36,292 nt of DNA from assembly GCA_905479535.1 (NCBI GenBank), contig CAJQMW010000309.1, forward strand, positions 1 through 36,292, written 5' to 3'. Of this stretch, positions 12,737 to 15,934 are shown in pieces. The DNA is from an uncultured Maribacter sp. Its GTDB lineage: Bacteria; Bacteroidota; Bacteroidia; Flavobacteriales; Flavobacteriaceae. The translations under genes were made by a program, and so were the position numbers. Position 1 is the first letter of the stretch, and each line of letters starts with the position of its first letter. The notes under the pieces were generated by a model that saw only the letters and a list, made by a program, of their open reading frames with translations, was not told where the DNA came from and made no database searches.

Positions 12737-14407
12737 ATGCCAAAGACCTACTGGAGAAATATTTTTTTACTTATTTCTATAACACTAATCCTGATCTTCA
12801 CAGCATGCAGAAAAAAGGTACTAGCGGCAGAACTTGTAATTACGAACGCCACCATATGGACCGGAAATAAAGAACAGCCCATGGCGACTGCCATGGCAAT
12901 ATCCGGTGATACACTTATAGAAATTGGTAGTGATATTGATATGGAAGCATTTATAGGGCCCAATACACAGCTAATGGATATGGAAGGTGCATTCATTACT
13001 CCAGGGTTTATAGATAGTCATGTCCATTTAATGATGGGAGGCAATGCATTACTTAGCGTGGAATTACGAGATGCCGATACCCCGGAAGAGTTTATCAAAC
13101 GTATTACAGAATACGCCGCTGCTTTGAAACCTGGCGCCTGGGTTTTGGAGGGAAATTGGGACCATACCCTATGGGGCGGAGCGCTGCCCAAAAAGGAATG
13201 GATTGATGAGTTTACCAAGCAAAACCCTGTAGCCCTGTACCGATTGGACGGACACATGATTTTAGCAAATTCCTTGGCATTGGAGCTCGCAGGAATCGAT
13301 AAAAATACGCCAGAAATAGTCGGAGGTGAAATCGTTAGACATACTGATGGCACACCAACAGGAATATTAAAGGATAACGCCATGAACGTTGTCTTTGAAA
13401 AAATAACCCCCATGACCCTGGTACAAAAAGAGAACGCCCTAGGGGAAGCTATGGACTACCTACTTTCCAACGGAGTTACCTCCGTTCATGATGTAGACAG
13501 TTTGGGCACGTATGCCGTAGCCAAAAAAATAAAGAAAGAAGGAAAATTAGCGATTCGTATTTACGCTATCAATCCCTTAAACCATTGGAATAAAAGGTAT
13601 GAAGGGAGTTTGCAAAGTGATTTTTATTTAAAGACCGGGGGCCTAAAAGGTTTTGTGGATGGTTCCTTAGGCTCCCATACGGCGGCCTTTAGGACTCCTT
13701 ACACGGACAAACCAACCGACAGTGGTTTTTTTATCAATTCAGAAGAAAAGTTGTACGAATGGATTAAGACGGCGGACAAGGAGAATCTACAGGTTTTGGT
13801 GCATGCCATAGGCGATAGGGCGATACACTCCATATTAGATATTTTTGAAAAAGTAAGCGAGGAGGAAGGGATTAAGGATCGCCGCTTTCGGATAGAGCAT
13901 GTACAGCATATTGAGCCCAAGGATATACCTAGACTTTCCCATTTAAACATTATTGCCAGCATGCAACCTTATCATGCCATTGACGATGGCCGGTGGGCAG
14001 AGGAATTAATAGGTCCCGAACGTGTTAAAACCACCTATGCCTTTAAGGACTTGTTGGATGCAAAAACGGTCCTTACATTTGGTAGTGATTGGCCCGTTGC
14101 CCCGGCCACACCTCTAGAAGGAATCTATGCTGCCGTTACACGACGTACGCTTGATGATAAAAATCCAGAGGGATGGGTACCCGTACAAAAAATTACAGCC
14201 GAGGAAGCATTACTCGCCTATACCAAGAATGGTGCCTTCGCATCCTTTGAAGAAGATTTAAAGGGAACGCTAGAGCCCGGCAAGCTGGCCGATTTTGTAG
14301 TTCTTGATAAGAACATCCTTAATGTGATGCCAAACCAAATAAAGAATATTAGAGTATTGCAGACTTTTGTAGGTGGCAAAAAAGTTTTTGAGACTACATC
14401 CGATTAG
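12737..14407 (+). CDS. Amidohydrolase (YtcJ-like), predicted lipoprotein
   Basis: Signal/lipobox LIFTACRKK; ITPGFIDSHVHLMMGG, HAIGDRAIHSILDIF, RIEHVQHI, FGSDWPVAP. Confidence 0.9.
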   Translation: MPKTYWRNIFLLISITLILIFTACRKKVLAAELVITNATIWTGNKEQPMATAMAISGDTLIEIGSDIDMEAFIGPNTQLMDMEGAFITPGFIDSHVHLMMGGNALLSVELRDADTPEEFIKRITEYAAALKPGAWVLEGNWDHTLWGGALPKKEWIDEFTKQNPVALYRLDGHMILANSLALELAGIDKNTPEIVGGEIVRHTDGTPTGILKDNAMNVVFEKITPMTLVQKENALGEAMDYLLSNGVTSVHDVDSLGTYAVAKKIKKEGKLAIRIYAINPLNHWNKRYEGSLQSDFYLKTGGLKGFVDGSLGSHTAAFRTPYTDKPTDSGFFINSEEKLYEWIKTADKENLQVLVHAIGDRAIHSILDIFEKVSEEEGIKDRRFRIEHVQHIEPKDIPRLSHLNIIASMQPYHAIDDGRWAEELIGPERVKTTYAFKDLLDAKTVLTFGSDWPVAPATPLEGIYAAVTRRTLDDKNPEGWVPVQKITAEEALLAYTKNGAFASFEEDLKGTLEPGKLADFVVLDKNILNVMPNQIKNIRVLQTFVGGKKVFETTSD

Positions 14408-14568
14408 GGCCCGTTAACACTAAACGAAAATCACGGATTTTTTGATGATTTTTTCGGGTTTTTAGGCGGTTTTAGCCAAACATAGTGAGCTACGTTGGCA
14501 AAAAACAACGAAGAAATACGAAAAAAGGGCTAAAAAGCCACTTTTGGGCTTAGTGTTAACAGGCCCTA
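14405..14568. mobile_element. MITE-like imperfect inverted-repeat element (~164 bp)
   Basis: Termini TAGGGCCCGTTAACACTAA (left) and reverse complement TAGGGCCTGTTAACACTAA (right); centre GCCAAACATAGTGAGCTACGTTGGC; no coding capacity. Confidence 0.65.
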
Positions 14569-14611
14569 GTTTAACTTAATCTTTTGGTTTAATTTTTGTG
14601 CTATACCTATC

Positions 14612-15934
14612 ATGAAAAAATTACAATTTCTAATTCTTCTATTCGTGGTGAATATTGGTCTCGGACAATATTCCATTTCCGGAAATTTGACGCCAGCAAA
14701 GGATTTTAAATGGCTAATTGCCTATGAATTAACGCCAACAGGTCAAAACTATATCGCGGACACCGAGGTCAGTGAAGGGTATTTTAATTTAAAACTACCG
14801 GTTACTGCGCAGCCGGGAGTGTATCGGTTGGTTTACGCAATTCCACAAGATAAGTTCTACATCGATGTTATTTACACTAAGAATGAGGATATAGAATTCA
14901 ATTTTAATTTAGAACAAGGCCTCAATTTTATCAAGTCCGAAGAGAATTTGTTGTATACAAAATACTTAGAGGAAATAGGTAATGCGCAAGATGAATTATT
15001 GAATTTCTATTCTGCCGGAAAAACCTCGCAGAGTGAATTCGAAGAGATTACTGAAAATTTAAAGGAAATACAGGAAAGATATGAGCTTATTGCTCCAGAG
15101 TCTATAGCACATCAATTGATAATCGCAAACAGGACCTATGTTCCTGATACCCGGGAGTCCTTGGAAACTTTTCTTCAAAATAAAAAATCGGCTTACTTTG
15201 AACATTTGGATGTAAGCAATCGCATCTTACAGAGTTCGGGTTTCCTAAGGGATAAAATAACGAACTATGTTTTTTCTGCCCTTTCACCTAAAATTTCCAC
15301 ACCATTAGAAATGGAAACGGCAATCAAAGAAAATATAGGGGTAGTACACCAAAAAATTTCAGGCACATCTAAAATTTATCAATTGGCCCTTTTTCAAGGA
15401 CTCTGGAATCTAGCACATGTCAATACCCTTTATACCGTGGCAGATTTTATCTATGCTTCCTATCTGAAAGGCTTGGCCCTGGATAATGATAAGCAAACAT
15501 TAATCGATGAAATAGAAGGAATATCCAGATTACGGTTGGGAAATAAATCGCCTGAAATCACGTGGGAAAAAAATGGAAACACCTATTCTTTGTCGGATTT
15601 GAATGCAGCGGAAAACTACGTACTCATATTCTGGAGCAGCACCTGTTCCCATTGTTTAAAGGAAGTTCCGCTACTTCATAAAGAGCTAAAAAATTATCCT
15701 AACGTAACCGTTTTAGCCATTGGTTTAGAGGACGATGAAATAAATTGGAAAAAAGAGGCGGCCAACTTACCGAACTTTGAACATGTCCTTGCCCTTGAGA
15801 AATGGGAAAGTGATTATGCCAAACTTTTTGCCATAGACAAAACACCTACCTATTTTATTTTGGACTCTGAAAAAAGGTTCATTTCCAAACCGGAGAGTGA
15901 TAAAGAACTCATAGAATTTCTTAGAAGCCAATAA
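14612..15934 (+). CDS. TlpA-like thioredoxin-domain protein, exported
   Basis: N-terminal signal peptide, C-terminal thioredoxin fold with FWSSTCSHCLKEVP and TPTYFILD. Confidence 0.85.
   Translation: MKKLQFLILLFVVNIGLGQYSISGNLTPAKDFKWLIAYELTPTGQNYIADTEVSEGYFNLKLPVTAQPGVYRLVYAIPQDKFYIDVIYTKNEDIEFNFNLEQGLNFIKSEENLLYTKYLEEIGNAQDELLNFYSAGKTSQSEFEEITENLKEIQERYELIAPESIAHQLIIANRTYVPDTRESLETFLQNKKSAYFEHLDVSNRILQSSGFLRDKITNYVFSALSPKISTPLEMETAIKENIGVVHQKISGTSKIYQLALFQGLWNLAHVNTLYTVADFIYASYLKGLALDNDKQTLIDEIEGISRLRLGNKSPEITWEKNGNTYSLSDLNAAENYVLIFWSSTCSHCLKEVPLLHKELKNYPNVTVLAIGLEDDEINWKKEAANLPNFEHVLALEKWESDYAKLFAIDKTPTYFILDSEKRFISKPESDKELIEFLRSQ

Follow-up and report, generated by a model that had tools for sequence, protein, structure and literature searches.

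The window, by which we mean the whole 36,292-nt stretch of DNA analysed (from an uncultured Maribacter sp.), carries on its plus strand an amidohydrolase gene (12737-14407, 556 aa; PF07969, E 2.4e-102) followed by a thioredoxin-like gene (14612-15934; PF13905). Both were assigned by profile match and by comparison with a same-genus genome, G012, in which the downstream gene is syntenic. A 164-nt sequence with terminal inverted repeats (TIRs) at both ends lies at 14405-14568 (coordinates and sequence checked). Its left TIR, TAGGGCCCGTTAACACTAA, occupies 14405-14423 on the plus strand and its right TIR, read as TAGGGCCTGTTAACACTAA on the minus strand, 14550-14568; each is 19 bp long, the right being the reverse complement of the left bar one mismatch, as seen in the sequence and a 20-copy alignment and, for the right end, in a TIR search. 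We take 14407-14566 (GGG...CCC) as the best reading of the mobile segment, with a target-site TA on each flank (14405-14406 and 14567-14568, both assigned from the G012 empty site described below); the left TA and the element's G14407 together form the TAG stop of the amidohydrolase.

Zero ORFs of at least 50 aa fall inside the element in the ORF list of the window. Folded end to end, all 164 nt form one interrupted hairpin of -57.7 kcal/mol (z = -6.4 against dinucleotide shuffles). Within it lies an internal hairpin module of ~52 nt (AGGC - hairpin - AAC; 14462-14513, plus strand), whose apical stem, by sequence and model alignment, is the inner palindrome GCCAAACATAG-TGA-GCTACGTTGGC at 14475-14499. 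An earlier note had described the sequence as MITE-like, with TIRs at both ends, a palindromic centre (now seen to form part of the module) and no ORF, and had placed the start of the left TIR at TAG 14405-14407, the amidohydrolase stop, and the next start codon 43 bp after the element. These points all stand: the repeats, the palindrome and the lack of an ORF are as given above, the stop follows from the 556-aa ORF, the ATG is at 14612, and the MITE-like nature is borne out by multiple copies, TIRs, a TA duplication, empty sites in a congener and autonomous IS5-family elements elsewhere that have these TIRs.

Copies in the genome and among relatives

The genome of the window (2.88 Mb in 587 contigs, 64% complete) contains 18 copies of the MITE including that at 14405-14568, at least 16 of them at distinct sites. 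SusD-like genes in this genome point to Bacteroidota, with Flavobacteriaceae as the probable family. The 17 further copies are 81-93% identical (E down to 6e-61), a repetition far beyond chance, and mean column identity across 20 aligned copies was 90%. The copies on contigs C346 and C360 are truncated or shortened, and C2 also carries a truncated copy. Two loci, L006 (C62) and L016 (C483), differ in their left flanks and share a common right flank; C483 stops 35 bp past the element, and the pair represents either an assembly chimera or recombination between copies.

No copy was found in 35 same-genus genomes, where the sole match was a 41-bp fragment in G033, and only 6 of 400 genomes of the family had the TIR at up to one mismatch. 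Copies of 164-165 bp with 84-90% identity were present in three other genera of the family (G347, G260 and G221). The window copy is 90.2% identical to that of G347 and 89.6% identical to its nearest full-length own-genome copy (C446), and it clusters with these two (support 93/93). The patchy distribution is consistent with horizontal arrival. Plasmid and phage collections gave no match to the MITE. G221 also has solo TIRs of ~18-20 bp without a second end (L193, L194 and L200). In L193 and L194 they directly follow the stop codon of a gene, and all three look like what is left of elements that lost their interior.

Insertion into the amidohydrolase stop codon

The empty site was predicted by joining the two flanks with a single TA. 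G012 matches this predicted site unbroken over 1239 bp at 79% identity, the junction reading GAT-TAG-TTTAAC in the prediction and AAT-TAG-ATTGGT in G012, with amidohydrolase C-termini TTSD* and ATSN*, respectively. The earlier note had suggested that the insertion may have replaced the original C-terminus or terminator. For the C-terminus this was not borne out, because the uninterrupted G012 gene ends in ...ACATCAAAT-TAG, at the same base as in the window; by this comparison the stop codon is ancestral and the C-terminus intact, with no residue lost. The TAG was rebuilt because insertion into TTAG duplicated the TA and the GGG end of the element supplied the G. Both ends of the element start with G and the TA is duplicated, so insertion at any YTAR site restores a TAG whichever strand is read; a TAG or TAA stop preceded by a pyrimidine can therefore be hit without harm.

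With 16 joined flanks as query, G012 yielded the sites of nine more copies, each aligned across the empty junction, giving 10 copies in total with an empty junction there, 14405-14568 included. The target was a G012-conserved stop codon in the copies on C379 (TAA) and C546 (TAG, minus strand) as well. YT|AR flanked 46 of the 53 elements that had these TIRs among the matches listed from other genomes. Judged from the empty sites and flanks, the target of the MITE is YTAR, with duplication of the TA.

Autonomous elements with the same ends

An exact scan for AGGGCCTGTTAACACTAA with one genome per species returned at least 117 stretches. Among the matches listed, most were from Gamma-, Beta- and Zetaproteobacteria, plus some from Acidobacteria and others, and paired TIRs were spaced by 46-321 bp (peak 267-268 bp), by 506 bp in one case, or by 817-825 bp. 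Elements of ~820 bp with identical TIRs carry two overlapping ORFs in -1 register that correspond to an IS5 transposase (L080, L103 and L156). The fused two-ORF protein matched NF033580 (transpos_IS5_3) at 260 bits against a cut-off of 110, and also PF13340 and PF01609; the reading frames suggest a -1 frameshift. In the same phylum as the window, G739 has an 856-bp IS5-family element with these TIRs.

A TIR search at 3 mismatches and searches with PF13340 and NF033580 found no full-length IS with these TIRs in the window's own genome, whose assembly is 64% complete and of a kind from which repeats often drop out. All its PF13340 and NF033580 matches proved to be IS5-like genes or remnants that lack these TIRs, among them a degenerate IS5-like transposase remnant at L206 (G000:C14:1746-4937). 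TIR-like sites on C180 and C221 lie within coding sequence and look like chance. The autonomous IS with the same TIRs that the earlier note had proposed looking for was found, then, in other genomes (~820-856 bp) and not in this one.

As the same TIRs bound ~820-bp two-ORF IS5-family transposons elsewhere, the mobiliser is read as probably IS427-type, to which the shared TIRs, ORF layout and YTAR target with TA duplication point. The window's genome yielded no IS of this kind, so mobilisation in trans is something that we only infer. The MITE and the autonomous ISs have little in common beyond the TIRs, so the MITE did not arise from the ISs seen by simple internal deletion.

Origin of the element and choice of site

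We propose that an IS5-family transposase of IS427 type would mobilise the MITE in trans, recognising the GGGCCTGTTAACACTAA ends, inserting at YTAR and duplicating the TA. The entry point here was T-TA-G, the amidohydrolase's own TAG stop, and the element spreads together with its structured internal hairpin module, which distant relatives with these ends have also kept and which may serve as a co-factor of transposition or as a structured RNA within the transcript. We put the probability of this reading, a non-autonomous MITE moved in trans by an IS427-type IS5 transposase that rebuilt the stop and carried a hairpin module, at about 0.93.

A palindrome with a very stable fold immediately 3′ of a stop codon might also be an ordinary intrinsic terminator or attenuating hairpin of the amidohydrolase gene, and the earlier note would have taken a single copy with its palindrome conserved in synteny among relatives for such a terminator. 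The copy search that it proposed, in this genome and its relatives, gave the opposite picture: the element is multi-copy with fixed ends, 17 further copies being present, and is missing from the syntenic locus in G012, where empty sites were found. In addition, a search of 14300-14700 found no terminator-like site (a G+C-rich hairpin followed by a T-run). A terminator as origin of the palindrome is refuted by the multi-copy state and the G012 empty site, and we regard a terminator or attenuator reading of the locus as extremely improbable. The MITE might instead seek out stop codons or the 3′ ends of genes in their own right, as a specialised safe-site strategy: a conserved stop codon is the exact site of 3 of 16 scorable own copies, and, with other genera included, 10 of 21 copies have a stop no more than about 10 bp away, a count with P about 1e-4 under the G012 null. 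However, YTAR sites alone are expected to fall in stops at 8.5% (G012 sample) to 17% (window) of non-coding sites, so that 3 of 16 does not demonstrate a preference for stop codons, and the window's own null gave P = 0.54 for the copies in stops and P = 0.05 for those near one. The gene calls used were crude (longest ORFs), and the G012 null rests on a caller that inflates non-coding DNA. Because YTAR insertions near stops are harmless and all survive, selection alone can give the near-stop pattern. In these null comparisons, specific stop-codon targeting beyond YTAR plus intergenic selection found no support; we consider a safe-site strategy improbable, and stop codons are hit about as often as YTAR targets and intergenic survival predict.

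A conserved hairpin module inside the MITE

The module of the transposed MITE is shared with elements from distant bacteria. Diverse Proteobacteria carry MITEs of near-constant length, 265-269 bp (L064, L066, L091, L093, L100, L116, L184 and others), laid out as TIR, spacer, ~53-nt module, centre, inverted module and TIR; this layout persists although 16 aligned sequences have an average column identity of only 65%. Complete elements of 265-268 bp also occur on viral-classed IMG/VR contigs (L181 and L184), which may place them on prophages or host flanks, and in 321-bp variants (L089 and L086) a further, degenerate TIR adjoins the left end, perhaps through nested or tandem insertion.

Aligned with MAFFT, 27 module sequences share a hairpin in which 11 of 12 pairs show changes on both sides and 94% of cells are paired. 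The covariation score was 0.671, compared with 0.238 ± 0.023 for shuffles and 0.05-0.12 for slid controls. The AGGC and AAC flanks hardly vary, and G-A mismatches occur in the lower stem. Covariance model R1 was built from proteobacterial sequences alone, with no flavobacterial sequence, after the resemblance had been noticed by eye; with E allowed up to 1, it matched the window at 14462-14513 alone (27.8 bits). Over 67 kb, R1 gave eight matches up to E = 10, all at the same place of flavobacterial elements (best E 2e-4), and it gave zero matches in 240 kb of G012 and zero in the IS-bearing loci. At two module pairs (columns 65-104 and 74-96), both sides have also changed among the flavobacterial elements themselves. 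Searched as whole genomes, Agaribacterium haliotis gave 39 module matches and Ca. Thiodiazotropha endolucinida 97. Each of the 30 module loci checked adjoins these TIRs or lies between them, with no locus seen that lacked them; 28 have TIRs on both sides, and L311 and L313 on one side, at up to 5 mismatches. The distance from module to TIR is fixed at about 54-57 nt. Since the module covaries, selection on its pairing is strongly indicated by these alignments.

Rfam 15 gave no match at gathering score; a weak MIR821 match, far below that score, was taken as a palindrome artefact. The box order of attC sites is RYYYAAC...GTTRRRY, and an attC-like reading of the module was dropped because its own order, AGGC...AAC, is unlike this.

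The module might act at the DNA level, as a single-stranded hairpin or cruciform that signals to the transposition machinery or a host factor, or as a structured RNA in read-through transcripts, where it could affect stability, shield against polarity or bind a host protein. That every module locus checked sits beside or inside these TIRs, at a fixed distance from them, and that IS-bearing loci are without it, speaks for a DNA signal. Yet the module is missing from the full-length ISs that have these TIRs, so it is not required for transposase recognition, and we hold the DNA reading as a tentative one. The strong covariation and the near-invariant flanks with G-A mismatches would suit an RNA, as would the two modules of the 267-bp relatives, whose opposite orientation means that transcription from either direction would yield one. 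Against this, the flavobacterial elements have one module only; in 7 of 10 scorable copies it is in the sense of the gene reading in, which is not significant; and in the window the minus strand folds better than the plus, so that folding leaves the strand undecided. An RNA role thus appears rather doubtful. For the family as a whole, it is plausible, at somewhat less than even odds, that elements with IS427-type ends, from Bacteroidota to several classes of Proteobacteria, carry a covarying ~52-nt module that does not come from the parent IS and acts as a functional RNA or single-stranded DNA structure.

Discussion

The ~820-860-bp ISs with these TIRs resemble members of the IS427 group of the IS5 family (IS711, IS1248 and ISPpa2) in having two overlapping ORFs, a YTAR target and a 2-bp TA duplication. 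IS711 is reported to have a YTAR target, a TA duplication and a -1 frameshift (PMC2266754), and similar properties are reported for the Paracoccus IS427-group ISs IS1248 and ISPpa2 (PMC3281130). Unlike these, the window element has no ORF and would be a non-autonomous partner. The TIR string GGGCCTGTTAACA had no occurrence in the literature searched, where shorter strings appeared only in unrelated papers.

Bacterial MITEs are short, multi-copy and mostly intergenic, with TIRs, no ORF and a stable transcript fold (PMC10969869), general features that the window element shares with QMITE2 of Coxiella and MITEAba12. It differs from other bacterial MITEs in its probably IS427-type parent with TA/YTAR targets and in a covarying module common to MITEs of other phyla. 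Bru-RS1 and Bru-RS2 of Brucella, compared by description only, are likewise palindromic repeats tied to an IS427-type IS, but are reported as insertion hot spots for IS711 (PMC2266754). A further likeness, in ends and module, is to the 265-269-bp MITEs of Gamma-, Beta- and Zetaproteobacteria, which have identical 18-bp TIRs, the YTAR target and the same hairpin module, whereas they carry two inverted modules to the one in the window element and are otherwise dissimilar in sequence. No published name for them was found in the literature searched.

A MITE with a rebuilt stop is ordinary in kind, here with unusually clean evidence, and the conserved module is of specialist interest. The rebuilt stop codon provides a clean worked example of insertions that stay invisible. 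MITEs are usually read as decayed ISs; a module conserved in distant bacteria together with identical ends suggests that these MITEs carry something selected. If the module does act as a functional structure, the elements would be mobile carriers of an undescribed structured motif, more than deletion derivatives, and the defined motif, its covariance model and the many copies would provide material for asking what a bacterial MITE needs besides its ends.
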